Shown one piece after another: positions 7,640-24,982 of a stretch of 38,472 nt of DNA. The notes under the pieces were generated by a model. The model was given only the letters and a program-made list of their open reading frames with translations. It did not search any database and was not told the origin of the DNA. How positions within the stretch are numbered: position 1 is the stretch's first letter; each line of letters opens with the position of its first letter. The DNA lies in assembly GCA_030536265.1 (NCBI GenBank), contig JAUNQJ010000003.1, positions 1-38,472 on the forward strand, written 5' to 3'. The position numbers were made by a program, and so were the translations under genes. The stretch comes from Erysipelotrichaceae bacterium (GTDB lineage Bacteria; Bacillota_I; Bacilli_A; Erysipelotrichales; Erysipelotrichaceae).

Positions 7640-8278
7640 TTACTTTACCTCCTTCTTACTTGAATTACTTCTCAATTTTGCAAATAGTGCAGCGAAGCAA
7701 GCAAACGCTAAGAATGCACCAACAGAAGTTGAGAAGAAAGAAATCTTATATGGTTCAAGAGCAGGAATAGCAATCTTGAAGATTTCTTGACTAGCATCAA
7801 ATGGATTATGGAATACAAGTCCCATAGTGCTTAAGAATTCTCTAACAATAGCAAGACCTACAATTGCGATTGTATAACCTAAGCCCATGCCTAAACCATC
7901 AATTGCAGAAGCAAGAATACCATTTTTGTTAGCGAATGCTTCAGCTCTTCCAAGAATGATACAGTTAACAACAATTAATGATAAGAATGCACCTAAAGAA
8001 ACATATAGTTCAGGCATAAATGCATGTACTAACATTTCAACAATTGTTACAAGAGAAGCGATGATAACAATGTATACTGGGATTCTTATTTCATCAGGAA
8101 TAATTTTTCTCATAGCTGAAATAATGCAGTTAGATAAAATTAATACGATGATTACACATAAGCTCATACCAATTGCAGAATCAATAGCACTTGATATAGC
8201 TAATGTAGAACACATACCTAGATATAAACCAAAGACAGGATTTTCTTTAATTAGACCGTTTTTAAAATTTTTCCACAT
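7640..8278 (-). CDS. rnfE: Rnf complex subunit RnfE
   Basis: 212 residues, homologous in fold to RnfA (inverted partner), with about six TM segments. Signatures: NPVFGLYLGMCSTLAIS (Cys near 23) and VNCIILGRAEAFA (Cys near 106), the paired Cys positions for the shared iron cofactor. The C-terminus is basic (KLRSNSSKKEVK). It has its own AGGAGG and sits between rnfG and rnfA in the canonical C-D-G-E-A-B order. Confidence 0.95.
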   Translation of the reverse strand: MWKNFKNGLIKENPVFGLYLGMCSTLAISSAIDSAIGMSLCVIIVLILSNCIISAMRKIIPDEIRIPVYIVIIASLVTIVEMLVHAFMPELYVSLGAFLSLIVVNCIILGRAEAFANKNGILASAIDGLGMGLGYTIAIVGLAIVREFLSTMGLVFHNPFDASQEIFKIAIPALEPYKISFFSTSVGAFLAFACFAALFAKLRSNSSKKEVK

Positions 8279-8291
8279 AATTATTTTCCTC

Positions 8292-8801
8292 CTATCCTAG
8301 TTCAGGGAATACAGCCTTAGCTGCAGCAATCATTCCCTGCATAGCTTTTGATGTTACTGTAGAACCAGAACGTAAATCAACATCTTGATCTAAAGTTTTA
8401 CCGATATATAAAGAGTTGATTGCATCGTCTTTGAAGTTCTCAGCACCAAAGCCGTTTGTTTCTTGTTGCTCAAGTGGTACAAGTTTTTGAATTGTTCCAT
8501 CATAATCGAAGCCAACAAGAATTGTAATACCAGAAGAAGAATAGCCCTTGCCCCAAAGTTTGAAAATGTAGCCTTGACCATCTGCTTCATAAATTCCAAG
8601 AATTGTAGATCCATCAACATACTTATCACCGACTGGTGTAAAGTCTGCACCTGGATACATTAATTCTAAGTTTGCCTTTTCAGCTTTAATAGCAGCTTCT
8701 TGAATTAGAGGCTCTGTAACAGAATTTACATAACCTAATACAAGTCCAGAAATTGCACTAACGATTCCTAGGAATAAAACTAATGTTAATATCTTTTTCA
8801 T
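8292..8801 (-). CDS. rnfG: Rnf complex subunit RnfG (covalent FMN)
   Basis: 169 residues. N-terminal TM (about 4-24), then an extracytoplasmic FMN-binding domain. The flavinylation motif SGSTVTS (145-151) marks Thr148 as the residue esterified to FMN by ApbE; ETNGFGAEN corresponds to the conserved ET-x-G-x-G region. The gene begins 1 nt after the rnfD stop, and its Shine-Dalgarno AAGGAG lies in the end of rnfD. No apbE is present in the window. Confidence 0.94.
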   Translation of the reverse strand: MKKILTLVLFLGIVSAISGLVLGYVNSVTEPLIQEAAIKAEKANLELMYPGADFTPVGDKYVDGSTILGIYEADGQGYIFKLWGKGYSSSGITILVGFDYDGTIQKLVPLEQQETNGFGAENFKDDAINSLYIGKTLDQDVDLRSGSTVTSKAMQGMIAAAKAVFPELG

Positions 8802-8802
8802 A

Positions 8803-10266
8803 TTAGTTAGCTCCTTCTAGTGCTCTTCTAGCTGCAGCGATTGCTGAATAGCTTGAGAAAGTTGCACTTGCATATGTATCAACTTCATCATCTAAGCCTT
8901 TACCAACGAATTGAGCTAAGAAGCCTTCGTCGTAAATCTTATCACCGATACCTTCTGTATCTTTAAACTTAGTGATTTCCATAGATTTAATTACACCGTC
9001 TTCAACAACGATATTAAATCTATTCTTACCACCTTCGTAGTTGAATCCTTTAGCAACAACATCATATGTATTACCATCAACAGATTTAACTTCTGAATTA
9101 GTGTAAGAATCATCTAAACCAGGAATACCTTCAGTTGTAATCTTGATTGTTTCTCCACGTTTATCAGCATCAAATTCAGGTAATGCATAAATTGATTTAT
9201 AAGAATTCTTTGTTAAACCTGTTCCGCATAATGCGATAGCAGCAACAAGTACTACTAGATATGCAGGAATAACAATGTTGAATTTCTTAGCGTTGTCTAA
9301 TTGGTTACCATCAGTAATCTTTTCGATTACACAAGTTAACATATTAGCAATTAAGATTGAGAATACAACACCTTCTGGTAATGAAGCAAATAATCTAATT
9401 AATACAGTTAAAATAGCAGCAACACCAGCGAAGATAATTCTTCCTACTCTAGTGTTAGGATTAGTAACTGGATCAGTTAGCATAAATACTGCACCAAATA
9501 AAATACCACCAGTTGAAATAAATGCTAGAGAATAAGCAATTCCTATACCATTTAATACACCAATTAATGTTGTACCAACAAAGATAACTCCTACATATAC
9601 TGCTGGAACTCTCCAGTCAATTACTTTAGTAATTGCTAGATAAATTGCTACAGCAATTAATAATATAGTAGAAGTTTCGCCAATTGCTCCTTCGTATAGA
9701 CCAAAGAATAAATTCTTTAATCCACCGAAGTCTTCTAGATAAACAGCAAAATCTGCTTGTTTAATTAACCAACCAGCAGAAGCAAATGTATTAGCTGGAG
9801 TAGCTCCAGATAAAACATCAGTAATCTTATTAGCAGCAAATGATGTTCCTAAGATTGCTCTACCAACACCAGCTGGGTTGAAAATGTTTTGACCAAAACC
9901 ACCGAATACTAATTTACCAAAGAAGATAGCAATAATAGTAGCGATAGCAATTGCATATGGATGAGTATCATAAGTAACTGTTAAAACAAGGATAATAGCA
10001 GTAACCCAACCAAATGAGTTCATTAAATAATCTAAAATATTTTTTTCTTTCGTTGCAAGTGCCCAGATAGTTTCTGTAGCAAATGCAGCAACAACTGCAA
10101 CAACCATTAAGATAATAGCATTAATTAAATAAGCTTTACCTAATGTGAATGCATGATATAAACCAAATGCATAAACTACTAGTAGACCAATAGTTAAGCG
10201 AAGCATTATCTTTTGAGTAGACATTGAATCACGAGCATTTGGATTTGCACGATATTTAATTTCCAT
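8803..10266 (-). CDS. rnfD: RnfD with an extra C-terminal RnfG-like FMN-binding domain
   Basis: 487 residues against about 310-350 for ordinary RnfD. Residues 1-330 are a normal multi-TM RnfD/NqrB-type subunit with the flavinylation motif SGATP (153-157, Thr156). After an additional TM (about 331-348) comes an outward-facing domain (about 360-487) that ends DTEGIGDKI...YASATFSSYSAIAAARRAL, the pattern of FMN_bind domains: KDTEGIGDK matches the ET-x-G-x-G region, and SATFSS (467-472, Thr469) the flavin acceptor. The complex would therefore hold two RnfG-like domains in addition to RnfD's own flavin. The reading frame is open throughout. SD AGGAGG precedes the ATG. Confidence 0.93.
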   Translation of the reverse strand: MEIKYRANPNARDSMSTQKIMLRLTIGLLVVYAFGLYHAFTLGKAYLINAIILMVVAVVAAFATETIWALATKEKNILDYLMNSFGWVTAIILVLTVTYDTHPYAIAIATIIAIFFGKLVFGGFGQNIFNPAGVGRAILGTSFAANKITDVLSGATPANTFASAGWLIKQADFAVYLEDFGGLKNLFFGLYEGAIGETSTILLIAVAIYLAITKVIDWRVPAVYVGVIFVGTTLIGVLNGIGIAYSLAFISTGGILFGAVFMLTDPVTNPNTRVGRIIFAGVAAILTVLIRLFASLPEGVVFSILIANMLTCVIEKITDGNQLDNAKKFNIVIPAYLVVLVAAIALCGTGLTKNSYKSIYALPEFDADKRGETIKITTEGIPGLDDSYTNSEVKSVDGNTYDVVAKGFNYEGGKNRFNIVVEDGVIKSMEITKFKDTEGIGDKIYDEGFLAQFVGKGLDDEVDTYASATFSSYSAIAAARRALEGAN

Positions 10267-19022: not shown

Positions 19023-19031
19023 CAAAATAAA

Positions 19032-19051
19032 GGAGGCTCATTTGAGCCTCC
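19032..19051 (-). terminator. Terminator of the opp operon
   Basis: Perfect 9-bp GC-rich stem GGAGGCTCA / TGAGCCTCC with a 2-nt loop, followed on the minus strand by TTTATTTTG. It lies 28 nt after the oppA stop. Confidence 0.9.
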
Positions 19052-19079
19052 CCCGTAAGTTAAATATTAGATATTTTAA

Positions 19080-20822
19080 TTATTCACCGAAATATTTGTT
19101 GATAACTTCTAATGCAGCAGCACAGTTGCTTTCTAGAGCAGCAGCACTTACATCATAGTAACCAACGAAACCGTCGTTATGACCAGCGTTCTTGTAGAAT
19201 TCAGATCCATCAGGTTCAGTTAAACCTAGAGCAACGAATGAAGAAGCAGGAAGTTGTCCAGCTTGACCGATTTCATCAACAACGTAGTTTCTGTCTAGTA
19301 ATAGAGAGAATGCTTTTCTTACTGCAGCTTGTTCAGTTTGGTAAGTAACAGCATCAAGACCAGCACCAGCAGATCCTAATAAGTCAGCATTTACGTTCCA
19401 GCAAATGTAGTATGTACCAAGTTGACCACCAACATAGTATTCAGTTGGATATTCAGCTTGAAGAGTCTTAATTTCAGCATTTGGTACTGAGTCAATCATT
19501 AGCCAATCGCCGTTCTTGTAGTTAGCAAGCATAGCGTTATCATCATCTGATAAGAAGAATTTTAATGTTGGCATTGTAACTGTATCAGCATCAATGTAGT
19601 TAGGGTTCTTTTCAAGAGTGATTACTGAGTTATGTTCCCAAGCAGTCATCTTGTATGGTCCGTTACAAATGAATGTAGAAGGATCAGTAGCCCATGCTTC
19701 GTTAGCAACAACATCTTCTCTTACTGGGAAGAAAGTTGGGAATGCTAATAATTCTTCAAAGTATGGAGTGTAGTTGTTTAATGTAACTGTTAAAGTCTTA
19801 GCAGCATCATCAGCAACAACAGCTAGATCATCAGGGTAACCCTTGATTGGTTCAAACATATAGCCATAGTCAGCAGCTGTATCAGTAGCAGCAGCTCTCT
19901 TCCAAGCAAATTCGAAATCAGAAGCTTTTAATTCTTGGCCATCAGACCATTTTAAACCATCTTTTAATGTGTATGTGTAAGTGATAGTTCCATCAGCATT
20001 AGAAACACCTTCAGGAAGTTCAGTTGCACATGCAGCAACGTAAACTAATTTACCATCTTTTTCAACTAGTTTAGCGATACCTTCAAATAAGTGAGAATCT
20101 AATGTAGCACCGTCAACTGCAGAGTTGAATGCAGGGTCGATGTTATCAGGTTCAGAAGCGATACAAACTGGAAGAACTGTACCACCATCAGATAAAGTTG
20201 TATTTTGGAAGAACTTGTATCCTAAAGGTGAGCAATAGAATCCAGAAATCTTATCTGAAAGCATATAGATATCAGTATAGTAATAGATTGGTGTTAAGCA
20301 ACCAGTTTCCATTAAGATATCTTCAGCAACGTGCATCATACCGAAACGTTTGTCTTGATCAACTTCAGTCTTGATATAACCGATTAGTTTATCATATGTT
20401 TCAGCCCATGTGCCGTTTTCAACTTTTTCATATCCGTAAGGTGTTAAATCCATGCTATAAATAGCAACGTCTTTATGAGCATCTCTACCGAATTGAACAT
20501 CGTTGTTACCAGAAGCAGTAGTCCACATGTCTAGGAATGAAATAGGATCGTTGAAGTCACCTAACCAACCATTTCTAGCAACAGTGTAGTTACCATCTTT
20601 TCTAGTGTTTAAGAATGTAGCCCATTCTTGGTTCTCAAGGTTAACGTTTACGCCAGCTTGAGCCCATGCTCCTTGACAATACTCAGCGATAGCTTGGTGT
20701 CCAGAGCCTGTGTTATATAGGTATGTAATAGATGCAGGTGTTTTTGCTTCTTCCTTAGCACCACAACCAGCAAGTGTAACTACCATTACAAGCGCTAATA
20801 ACACTGTAAGTAATTTTTTCAT
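19080..20822 (-). CDS. oppA: Circularly permuted peptide-binding lipoprotein (OppA-type)
   Basis: 580 residues, intact. Lipoprotein signal peptide with lipobox LAGC (Cys20). Mature residues 31-210 correspond to the C-terminal third of ordinary OppA: SITYLYNTGSGHQAIAEYC, then NQEWATFLNTRKDGNYTVAR, GWLGDFNDPISFLDMW, AEDILMETGCLTPIYYYTD and SPLGYKFFQN. After a short linker (TTLSDGG), residues 215-575 correspond to the canonical N-terminal two thirds: IASEPDNIDPAFNSAVDGAT, HLFEGI, YTLKDGLKWSDGQELKASDF, CNGPYKMTAWEHN, AVRKAFSLLLDRNYVVD, then GYYDVSAAALESNCAAALEV at the new C-terminus. The order is thus inverted relative to Bacillus OppA. It is the last gene of the opp operon, with its own SD. Confidence 0.93.
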   Translation of the reverse strand: MKKLLTVLLALVMVVTLAGCGAKEEAKTPASITYLYNTGSGHQAIAEYCQGAWAQAGVNVNLENQEWATFLNTRKDGNYTVARNGWLGDFNDPISFLDMWTTASGNNDVQFGRDAHKDVAIYSMDLTPYGYEKVENGTWAETYDKLIGYIKTEVDQDKRFGMMHVAEDILMETGCLTPIYYYTDIYMLSDKISGFYCSPLGYKFFQNTTLSDGGTVLPVCIASEPDNIDPAFNSAVDGATLDSHLFEGIAKLVEKDGKLVYVAACATELPEGVSNADGTITYTYTLKDGLKWSDGQELKASDFEFAWKRAAATDTAADYGYMFEPIKGYPDDLAVVADDAAKTLTVTLNNYTPYFEELLAFPTFFPVREDVVANEAWATDPSTFICNGPYKMTAWEHNSVITLEKNPNYIDADTVTMPTLKFFLSDDDNAMLANYKNGDWLMIDSVPNAEIKTLQAEYPTEYYVGGQLGTYYICWNVNADLLGSAGAGLDAVTYQTEQAAVRKAFSLLLDRNYVVDEIGQAGQLPASSFVALGLTEPDGSEFYKNAGHNDGFVGYYDVSAAALESNCAAALEVINKYFGE

Positions 20823-20870: not shown

Positions 20871-21869
20871 CTATTTATTAAATTCTTCATCAACTTTGTG
20901 GCATGCTACGTAATGACCAGGTTTATATTCTTTAAACTCTGGCATACTCTCAGCACATTTATCACTAGCATATGGACATCTAGTTCTAAATGGACAGCCA
21001 CTTGGTGCGTTTAGTGGAGATGGAATATCACCACTTAATACGATACGTTTATTTGCTCTAGCAGTTTTTGGATCAGGTACTGGAACTGCAGATATTAGAG
21101 CTTGAGAATATGGGTGAAGCGGATTGTCATAGATATCTGCTGCATCAGCTAATTCAACAAGTCTACCTAGATACATAACTGCGATACGATCTGAGATGTG
21201 TCTTACAACAAGCAAATCGTGAGCAATGAATAAGTAAGTTAAACCAAGTTTCTCTTGAAGTTCTTTAAACATATTGATTACTTGAGCTTGAATAGAAACA
21301 TCTAGTGCAGATACTGGTTCATCACAAACAATGAAATCAGGATTTACAGCTAACGCTCTAGCAATACCAATACGTTGTCTTTGACCACCCGAGAATTCGT
21401 GAGCATAACGAGTAGCATGTTCAGAGTTTAGTCCAACATGATTCATTAGTTCAAGAATCTTTTCGCGTCTTTCTTCAGGAGTGTTATACAATTTGTGAAC
21501 ATCTAATGGTTCACCAATAATATCAGCAACAGTCATTCTAGGATTCAATGATGAATATGGATCTTGGAATACCATGGTTGCTTTTTTACGGAACTCATGA
21601 ATATCTTCTTTAGTCTTGATTAATTTACCATTGTAGTAAATTTCTCCATCTGTAGGTTCATATAGATTTAGGATAGTTCTACCAACAGTAGTCTTTCCAC
21701 AACCTGTTTCTCCTACTAAACCTAATGTTTCACCTTTTCTAATAAAGAATGAAACATCATCAACAGCTTTTAACTTTTTAGTTTTAAATAAGCCATCATT
21801 AATATCGAAATATTCTTTTAAGTGTTTTACTTCAAGAAGAGGAGTTTCGTCAAATTTCTTTTCGCTCAT
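20871..21869 (-). CDS. oppF: Oligopeptide ABC transporter ATPase OppF
   Basis: 332 residues. Walker A GETGCGKT (about 54-61), Q-loop FQDPYSSLNPR, signature FSGGQRQRIGIARAL, Walker B DFIVCDEPVSALDV and the H-loop IAHD. The C-terminal oligopeptide-transporter extension has the Cys motif GCPFRTRCPYASDKCAE. ATP-hydrolysing half of the peptide importer. The start lies 3 nt past the oppD stop. Confidence 0.96.
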   Translation of the reverse strand: MSEKKFDETPLLEVKHLKEYFDINDGLFKTKKLKAVDDVSFFIRKGETLGLVGETGCGKTTVGRTILNLYEPTDGEIYYNGKLIKTKEDIHEFRKKATMVFQDPYSSLNPRMTVADIIGEPLDVHKLYNTPEERREKILELMNHVGLNSEHATRYAHEFSGGQRQRIGIARALAVNPDFIVCDEPVSALDVSIQAQVINMFKELQEKLGLTYLFIAHDLLVVRHISDRIAVMYLGRLVELADAADIYDNPLHPYSQALISAVPVPDPKTARANKRIVLSGDIPSPLNAPSGCPFRTRCPYASDKCAESMPEFKEYKPGHYVACHKVDEEFNK

Positions 21870-21871
21870 TT

Positions 21872-22885
21872 TTATTTACCCCCTTCTTCAGAAACTTCAA
21901 GCTCACCAGTATCAATTCCTTCTTTAATCGCCATCCAACAAGTTGATTGGTGATCATCGTTGATTTGAATTCTTTCAGGTTTTTGTTCTAAACAAATCTT
22001 CATACAATTCTCACAACGAGGTGCGAATGCACAACCCTTTGGCATATTTAATAAATCAATAGGAGTACCAGTAATTGGTTTTAATTTTTGTCCCATTGTT
22101 TTCATTGTTGGAATGGATCTTAATAATCCTTTTGTATATTCATGTTTTGGATTATAGAAGATTTCATCTGCTGTACCTTGTTCACAAATTGAACCAGCGT
22201 ACATTACAATTACTTCATCACAAATTTGAGCAATAACACCTAAGTCATGGGTAATCATTATGATTGCCATTCCTAATTTCTTTTGTAGATCCATCATTAA
22301 CTCAATAATTTGAGCTTGGATTGTAACATCAAGTGCAGTTGTAGGTTCATCTGCGATTAATACATCTGGTTCACAAGCTAGTGCCATTGCGATACCTACA
22401 CGTTGTCTCATACCACCAGAGAATTCATATGGATATTGATTAACACGTTTCTCTGGTTCATTGATACCTACAAGTCTAAGCATTTCAACCGCTCTTTCCT
22501 TAGCCTGTTTTCTATCACGGTCAGTATGTAATAATATTGCTTCCATCAATTGATGACCAACAGTATATGTTGGATTTAATGAAGTCATTGGATCTTGGAA
22601 GATGATAGAGATTTTATTACCTCTAATAGTCTTCAAGAAGTTTTCTTTTGCGCCAACCAATTCTTGGCCATCAAACTTAATTGATGATCCATCTTTGATT
22701 TGTCCAGTTGAAGCTAAAATTTGAAGAATAGAATATGCAGATACTGATTTACCAGAACCAGATTCACCAACGATACCTAATACTTTTCCTCTTTCAAGAT
22801 TGTAAGAGATATCATTTACTGCTTTAACTTCACCATTATCTGTAAAGAAGGAAGTTTTTAGATTTCTTATTTCAAGTAATGCCAT
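21872..22885 (-). CDS. oppD: Oligopeptide ABC transporter ATPase OppD
   Basis: 337 residues. Walker A GESGSGKS (about 38-45), Q-loop [17 protein letters not shown], signature [15 protein letters not shown], Walker [16 protein letters not shown]-loop ITHDLGV, and the Opp/Dpp C-terminal Cys cluster [15 protein letters not shown] that in relatives holds an Fe-S cluster. Partner of OppF. SD AGGAGG overlapping the oppC end. Confidence 0.96.
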
Positions 22886-22895
22886 AACTTTCCTC

Positions 22896-23954
22896 CTATC
22901 CGTTTAACTTAGGGTCAAATGCATCTCTTAATCCATCACCAAATAAGTTAAGTGATAATACGATTAATGAGATAACAACTGCCGGTATTATTAATCTATA
23001 AGTATATGTATTAACGCCGTTTAATGCATCTGAAGCAAGCGAACCAAGTGAAGGCATTGGAGCATTAACACCTAAGCCTAAGAATGAAAGATAACTTTCA
23101 GTAAAGATAGCACTTGGAATTTGTAAAGCTGTAGAAATAACAATTACTGAAATACAGTTTGGAATTAAGTGTTTCTTAATAATCCAACCAGCTTTAGCTC
23201 CTGTAGCTTGAGCACTTAATACATATTCTTGTTCTCTTAGTGATAATATTTGTCCACGAATTAAACGTGACATTGAAACCCAATATAATAATGCAAAGAC
23301 AATGAATAACGAAATGATATTTGAGCCAATCTTACTTAAAGCAGATCTATCAATAACCTTCGCTAATTCCGTTTGTTTTAATACTGATGATAATAAGATA
23401 ACCATTAGCATATCAGGTAATGAATAGATAATATCTACAATACGCATGATAACTAAATCGACCTTACCACCACAATAACCAGCAATAGAGCCAACAGTCA
23501 TACCAATTACAAGAACGATAATAGAAGCAAAGAATCCAATTGATAATGAAATTCTTGTTCCATAAATAACTCTTATAAAGTAATCTCTTCCTGCGGCATC
23601 TGTACCAAAGAAGTGTGGCATAACAAACTCGCCAGCCGCCTTTCTTGCAAGTTCAGACTCTGAATATTGCATTGGGAATAAGTTATTGTAAGATGCATCA
23701 ACTGGTTTACCAATTTGCATACCTAATTGTTGTTCATAACCATAAGGCCAGAAAATTGGAATGATAATACTAGCTAAAGTAATAATGATAATAATAATCA
23801 ACGATACTGTAGCAACTTTATTTTTAAGTAATCTCTTGCAACCATCTTTAAAGAATGTTGAAGATGGTCTCATTTGAACTAGATAAGCTTTTTCTTCGTT
23901 AGTAGCAGGAATGAACTTGTCTAGGTCAACATGCATTGTTAATCTTTTCTTCAT
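22896..23954 (-). CDS. oppC: Oligopeptide ABC transporter permease OppC
   Basis: 352 residues. A long cytoplasmic N-terminus (about 45 residues) precedes the first TM, as is normal for OppC. An extracytoplasmic segment with HFFGTDAAGRDYFIRVIYGTR follows, then the five-TM core. The EAA loop is ALSAQATGAKAG..IIKKHLIPN-like (VLSAQATGAKAGWIIKKHLI). C-terminus GLRDAFDPKLNG is typical. Confidence 0.96.
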   Translation of the reverse strand: MKKRLTMHVDLDKFIPATNEEKAYLVQMRPSSTFFKDGCKRLLKNKVATVSLIIIIIITLASIIIPIFWPYGYEQQLGMQIGKPVDASYNNLFPMQYSESELARKAAGEFVMPHFFGTDAAGRDYFIRVIYGTRISLSIGFFASIIVLVIGMTVGSIAGYCGGKVDLVIMRIVDIIYSLPDMLMVILLSSVLKQTELAKVIDRSALSKIGSNIISLFIVFALLYWVSMSRLIRGQILSLREQEYVLSAQATGAKAGWIIKKHLIPNCISVIVISTALQIPSAIFTESYLSFLGLGVNAPMPSLGSLASDALNGVNTYTYRLIIPAVVISLIVLSLNLFGDGLRDAFDPKLNG

Positions 23955-23966
23955 GTTTTCTTCCTC

Positions 23967-24896
23967 CTACTCTAAGTTGATTCTAGGGTCAACAATCTTG
24001 TACATAATATCAGATACTAAGTTTGCGATAACGATTAATACTGATAAGACAATAGTTGTTCCCATAATCAATGGATAATCACGGTTAGTAATTGAATTTA
24101 CGAATGCTCTACCAATTCCAGGAACTGAGAAAATCTTTTCAACTACTAATGAACCAGTTACGATGTAAGCTAACATTGGTCCAACATATGTAATAACAGG
24201 GATTAATGAATTCTTTAAAGCGTGTTTAAATACAATACCCCATTTAGAAACACCTTTAGCTTTTGCGGTTCTAATATAATCTTGACCTAAAACATCTAAC
24301 ATACTAGATTTAGTTAATCTTGTAATGTAAGACATTGGTGATAAAGACAATGTAATAACCGGAAGAATTAATCCACCAGCTGCATCACCGTTTGCGGGCA
24401 AGATATGTAGTTTAACTGAGAACAATGTTAATAAGAATGTTCCCATAATAAATGAAGGCATAGATACAAACGCAGTAGAAACAACCATGATAACTCTATC
24501 AATAATTGTGTTTCTATTTAATGCTGCACATGATCCAAGTAAAATACCAAAGATTAAAGCAATGATTGCTGCGATTACACCAAGCTTAGCAGATACTGCC
24601 ATGCCTGTAGCAATAATAGTAATAACATCTCTTCCTCTTTGTTTAATAGATGGACCGAAATCGAATTTTGTAACGATGCCAGTTAAGTAATCTAAATATT
24701 GTTGCATTAAAGGTTTATCTAAACCATACTTTGCTTCTAATGCTGCTTGTACTTCAGGAGATACAGCCTTCTCAGATAAGAATGGTCCTCCAGGAACTGC
24801 GTGCATAACGAAGAAAGTTACTGTAATAACAACCCATACAGTAACGATGGCTAAGATAACTCTTTTAACAATATATCCTAGTGTTTTTGAATTCAT
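23967..24896 (-). CDS. oppB: Oligopeptide ABC transporter permease OppB
   Basis: 309 residues. TM1 (about 8-30), then the conserved FFVMHAVPGGPF, the KYGLDKPLMQQYLDYL segment, and EAA loop RTAKAKGVSKWGIVFKHALKN. C-terminal DIMYKIVDPRINLE is the usual ending. First gene of the operon; SD CGAGGTAG. The promoter is 58-86 nt upstream. Confidence 0.96.
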   Translation of the reverse strand: MNSKTLGYIVKRVILAIVTVWVVITVTFFVMHAVPGGPFLSEKAVSPEVQAALEAKYGLDKPLMQQYLDYLTGIVTKFDFGPSIKQRGRDVITIIATGMAVSAKLGVIAAIIALIFGILLGSCAALNRNTIIDRVIMVVSTAFVSMPSFIMGTFLLTLFSVKLHILPANGDAAGGLILPVITLSLSPMSYITRLTKSSMLDVLGQDYIRTAKAKGVSKWGIVFKHALKNSLIPVITYVGPMLAYIVTGSLVVEKIFSVPGIGRAFVNSITNRDYPLIMGTTIVLSVLIVIANLVSDIMYKIVDPRINLE

Positions 24897-24953: not shown

Positions 24954-24982
24954 ATTATATATAAGGATGAAACATATAACAA
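24954..24982 (-). promoter_or_regulatory. Promoter of the opp operon
   Basis: TTGTTA (24982-24977), 17-nt spacer, TATAAT (24959-24954) on the minus strand: near-consensus sigma-A promoter giving an approximately 50-nt leader for oppB. Confidence 0.8.

Follow-up and report, generated by a model that had tools for sequence, protein, structure and literature searches.

The last gene of an opp operon in the window, by which we mean the whole 38,472-nucleotide stretch of Erysipelotrichaceae DNA analysed here, very probably encodes a working, naturally permuted class C (SBP_bac_5) oligopeptide-binding lipoprotein that serves as the binding subunit of OppBCDF. Equally high confidence attaches, jointly with such a working protein, to the gene's membership in an ortholog family, spread over gut Bacillota and Coriobacteriia, whose terminal opp gene was permuted in place on several occasions, at three recurrent cuts.

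The gene, oppA (P0001, type A circular permutant), lies at 19080..20822 on the minus strand, as do all features of the window given below, and encodes 580 aa from an ATG start to a stop codon at 19080-19082, with no internal stop. Its N-terminus, MKKLLTVLLALVMVVTLAGC, reads as a lipoprotein signal peptide (residues 1-19, 20766..20822) with the lipobox LAG-C in a Gram-positive host, and the lipobox cysteine, Cys20 (20763-20765), is invariant in 24 type A proteins (alignment A1). The canonical C-terminal third, divided here into pieces C1 and C2, has moved to the front (residues 30-210, 20193..20735); the linker TTLSDGG (residues 208-214, 20181..20201) joins the old C-terminus to the old N-terminus; and the canonical N-terminal and middle parts, N1 and N2, follow (residues 215-580, 19083..20180). 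The new N-terminus (about residue 30) stands directly before the strand SITYLYNTG, and the second block runs to the new C-terminus (about residue 580), past the helix that in canonical OppA comes before this strand.

When the two blocks were compared with the B. subtilis OppA chain (8are) by phmmer, the matches were crossed, not collinear: residues 211-530 align with chain positions 16-326 (140 bits), residues 30-109 with 369-450 (57.5 bits), and residues 142-208 with 456-522 (22.9 bits). The same crossed order was seen against DppE, MppA and Salmonella OppA, and overall residues 30-208 correspond to the C-terminal third of OppA and DppE and residues 211-547 to their beginning and middle. The PF00496 match of the protein reaches 205 bits (curated cut-off 32.4), and the profile is split, with positions 11-268 at 19143-20003 and positions 288-367 at 20502-20738, upstream in the gene. 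The protein is a homologous member of SBP_bac_5 with a permuted topology, its chain order being C1-C2-N1-N2 instead of the canonical N1-N2-C1-C2; two blocks of one protein are exchanged and the old termini fused within a single open frame, as in a natural circular permutant. This crossed order is far above chance, and it was found in a genus-mate and in about 30 other distinct genomes. The initial annotation had read the gene as a circularly permuted OppA with the C-terminal third first; the crossed phmmer matches, the split PF00496 profile and the relatives bear this out, and the joining residues and new termini lie where that annotation had placed them.

The operon runs oppB (permease, first gene, 23967..24896), oppC (permease, 22896..23954), oppD (ATPase, 21872..22885), oppF (ATPase, 20871..21869) and oppA, all on one strand, and this order, with oppA at the 3' end, is common to all architectures of the family wherever upstream genes were available. 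A promoter-like TTGTTA-17-TATAAT (24954..24982) lies upstream of oppB and a terminator-like hairpin of 11 pairs (19029..19054) directly after oppA, each a kind of site whose count in the region is not above chance.

Typing of the relatives with four HMM pieces, which follow one another as N1, N2, C1 and C2 in the canonical protein, sorted them into the canonical architecture (N1-N2-C1-C2) and three permuted ones: type A (C1-C2-N1-N2, the order of the window gene), type B (N2-C1-C2-N1) and type C (C2-N1-N2-C1). The type B cut lies about one hundred residues before the type A cut in canonical order, and the type C cut falls within the C-terminal third; members of one type share almost the same cut point, and every permuted relative bridges C2 and N1 with 5-10 residues. 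With overlapping loci counted, 81 loci were canonical, 48 type A, 35 type B and 22 type C, and the distinct permuted sequences numbered 31, 27 and 19 for A, B and C, respectively. Type A order was present in 31 of the loci first found, many of them in Clostridia MAGs from various projects, and type B occurs in both Clostridia and Coriobacteriia. Thus the scope first given to the finding was too small: at least three permutations have arisen repeatedly within a single ortholog family, and the window gene carries one of them. Split matches in G267, G277 and G315 had suggested a fourth permutation with its cut in N1; HMM typing of the full-length ORFs returned canonical, A, B and C orders only.

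Several members of the family showed further peculiarities. L205 (3333-5072) is a very divergent type C gene, 34% identical to the window protein, and possibly another independent permutation. The type C oppA of L141/L211 carries an in-frame stop, reflecting either a pseudogene or a sequencing error. Unlike the permuted proteins, the canonical members L091, L095, L099, L103 and L105 carry signal peptides of the ordinary secretory kind that lack the lipobox cysteine. Coriobacterial type B proteins (L077-L082, L084, L085, L087, L088) bear twin-arginine-like lipoprotein signals, SRRNFL...SACG, whose sequence suggests export of the folded protein.

For two permuted genes a close canonical ortholog could be identified at the same operon position. 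Over 556 aa the amino acid identity between canonical L111 and type B L133/L212 is 86.7%; from the operon to the signal peptide L111 1774-5970 is collinear with L212 5469-9682 (78% DNA identity), and beyond it the blocks are swapped, L111 5994-6806 corresponding to L212 10564-11376 and L111 6825-7664 to L212 9712-10551, both about 80% identical. L133 even retains a canonical-like end, YCTV, at its own joint. The second pair, canonical L202 and type A L201, comes from one genus of the window's class: the upstream DNA is 87% identical and the downstream DNA 86-88% identical into the next gene, and the oppA halves are exchanged, the blocks themselves being just 72-78% identical. Since the oppA blocks are swapped in both pairs next to matching DNA, upstream in L111/L212 and on both sides in L201/L202, the permutation occurred in place. 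Around the permutation in the second pair (L201 7020-8795 against L202, reverse complement, 7723-9612) oppA diverged faster than its flanks, a difference absent from L111/L212. Directly downstream of the type B oppA, L212 11478-12104 encodes the C-terminal half of a distant paralogue (31-32% identical, no signal peptide), which is probably a decayed gene.

The trees place a similar number of rearrangements on the family whichever proteins are used. On the OppA tree of 129 rows, with sequences rotated to canonical order, 9 changes of order were counted; a careful OppA tree of 70 rows gave 10, and so did the tree of the unpermuted neighbours OppB+C+D+F. The OppA and OppBCDF trees agree that type B L133/L212 is nested in a canonical clade and that type A L167/L201 is sister to a canonical gene. 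Not every one of these changes need be a new permutation, as some may represent recombination or a reversion to the canonical order, and we read them cautiously as at least two events per type, with returns to canonical order counted as events. It is unlikely that each permutation was ancient and single and that reversions and the horizontal transfer of entire operons produced the scatter on the trees. Such an origin would suit the almost identical cut points within each type, and AU tests did not reject one clade for type A without L167 (p 0.41) or for type B without L133 (p 0.37). However, a single clade was rejected for types A (p 1.9e-5), B (p 0.0023) and C (p 4.5e-4), each taken as a whole, and the two close pairs speak against it as well, L133 being 87% identical to canonical L111 with the YCTV end still at its joint, and the flanks of L201 and canonical L202 matching at 86-88% identity. 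Moreover, transfer of an operon leaves the order within oppA unchanged, and a reversion would itself be a permutation event.

As for the recurrent permutation in place that we favour, we infer as the most likely route that the whole or part of oppA was duplicated beside itself, that the adjacent copies were fused through a short linker (about 7 residues in the window gene), and that the outer copies were then lost, leaving a permuted oppA. Duplication next to itself, fusion and loss of the outer copies form the standard model of permutation (PMC3320104). None of the 236 ORFs with family matches had a doubled part, as duplication intermediates would, and beside the permuted genes there were no close-matching remnants of the lost halves. 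A 1177-aa open frame in G1144, considered as a fused tandem oppA, proved to be two separate tandem canonical genes (L200); these two genes (L200 4089-7619) close one opp operon and are a possible substrate for permutation by duplication. This DNA route of duplication, fusion and loss is plausible, as is the tandem duplication that the initial annotation had proposed.

A dedicated DNA mechanism, either local recombination or excision of a circle followed by reinsertion, might instead make oppA a permutation hotspot, and the recurrence at a single locus, the reuse of three cut points and the clean, remnant-free swaps in both close pairs would fit it; a non-systematic look brought up neither a recombinase gene nor a repeated site, reuse of the cut points is also explained by which loops tolerate new termini, and we regard such a mechanism as quite improbable. 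In a broader sense the terminal oppA may be a hotspot that has been rotated in place many times (9-10 changes of order on the trees) among three non-canonical starts, perhaps selected for moving the anchor between the lobes, a reading we put forward only tentatively. Domain III of Salmonella OppA comprises residues 271-486 or thereabouts. We take the A and C cuts to lie inside this domain and the B cut at its start; with cuts inside or at the edge of domain III, permutation would shift the lipid anchor away from the side of the N-lobe and onto that of the C-lobe. Selection for moving the lipid anchor between lobes is, at present, speculation.

The coding sequences point to proteins in use. dN/dS was 0.07-0.22 within type A, 0.16-0.31 within type B and 0.07 for the single type C pair, and between canonical and permuted partners it was 0.053 for L111/L212 and 0.25 for L201/L202; together with the conserved lipobox, linker and operon, these low values suggest that the permuted genes encode working binding proteins. 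The AlphaFold2 model of the window protein is confident (mean pLDDT 87.8, pTM 0.84), with OppA and DppE as best PDB matches, and in combination with dN/dS of 0.05-0.3 it likewise indicates working proteins. The Foldseek matches of the model are partial (TM 0.45-0.49, rmsd 5-9 A, from order-dependent superposition only) because Foldseek aligns in chain order, so they do not prove an unchanged fold; the type B prediction is weaker (pLDDT 74) and adds little. In the proposed scheme new termini would have opened in a surface loop, and the chain would still fold to the ordinary OppA shape with its lipid anchor at a different place; peptide binding and a fold identical to that of canonical OppA are expected of the permuted proteins. 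The suggestion that the window permutant is functional is well supported by its single copy, conserved operon position, purifying selection and confident fold. It is very unlikely that the permuted genes are decaying copies whose task has passed to a different peptide-binding protein. A stop does interrupt one type C gene (L141/L211), and several genomes have other, distant OppA paralogues, but dN/dS stays at 0.05-0.31, lipobox and linker are conserved, oppA is last in an intact operon, and no SBP_bac_5 protein other than the window oppA was found in the genome from which the window comes.

That an assembler fused two neighbouring oppA paralogues or collapsed a tandem repeat has next to no probability and is already refuted for the permuted family: the window does come from a fragmented MAG (96 contigs, 79% complete), but identical junctions recur in dozens of assemblies made independently, in different projects and with different assemblers; the genus-mate G008 (L006/L035, 70% identical) has the window's order with an open frame; L087, a type B locus from a record without a MAG label (Coriobacteriales bacterium OH1046; nearly all of the genomes are MAGs), is permuted as well; every permuted case has an open frame with lipobox and linker, under purifying selection; and a collapsed repeat would still need its start and end at the permuted points. 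No further PF00496 protein was found in the 953 kb of the window's genome (79% complete), which leaves the assembler no adjacent paralogue to have fused, and this together with the order in the relatives all but excludes such a join for the window gene.

Among known proteins, the class C proteins OppA, DppE and MppA (PF00496) resemble the window protein in homology over the whole protein, lipoprotein anchor and opp operon with cognate permease and ATPase genes, and the window protein may also share their bilobed fold, which is predicted for it; they differ in that the window chain is rotated and its termini lie in another loop, beside the strand with which the canonical C-terminal third begins. 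TpMglB-2 (Tp0684) of Treponema pallidum and Gram-positive relatives is a permuted class B sugar-binding lipoprotein that binds glucose and changes conformation (PMC4990184), and is likewise a natural circularly permuted lipoprotein and binding protein of an ABC importer. However, it has the class B/type I sugar-binding fold, from which the window protein is set apart by its PF00496 match and OppA homology, and it shows one permuted topology, with 13% identity in the moved part and without a close canonical sister (PMC4990184), whereas the OppA family has three permutations, and its canonical sisters reach 87% identity. Natural circular permutation has also been described for DNA methyltransferases and for saposin/swaposin, the methyltransferases having several permuted classes and documented duplication intermediates (PMC3320104); those events are old and run across paralogues, whereas in OppA permutation is recurrent at one orthologous operon position and includes recent pairs. 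In the open-licence literature we found no report of a permuted OppA-class protein or of recurrent permutation of one ortholog, which is consistent with the view of the initial annotation that no natural permuted OppA had been described, even though the permuted class B protein TpMglB-2 is known (PMC4990184). As far as could be found, this is the first permutation for the OppA class, and it is unusual in recurring at one orthologous locus.

Evidence for natural circular permutation usually comes from pairs so old and so far diverged that the way in which a permutation happens is hidden. In OppA it recurs at one locus, permuted and canonical orthologs reach 87% identity, and in one genus the DNA on either side of the gene is intact; this recurrence and these close pairs open the mechanism of permutation, its intermediates and its effect on fitness to testing. 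Moreover, in many gut genomes this conserved transport protein is misplaced by annotation and alignment that depend on chain order, and the permuted OppA proteins are natural scaffolds with new termini, useful for sensor design.
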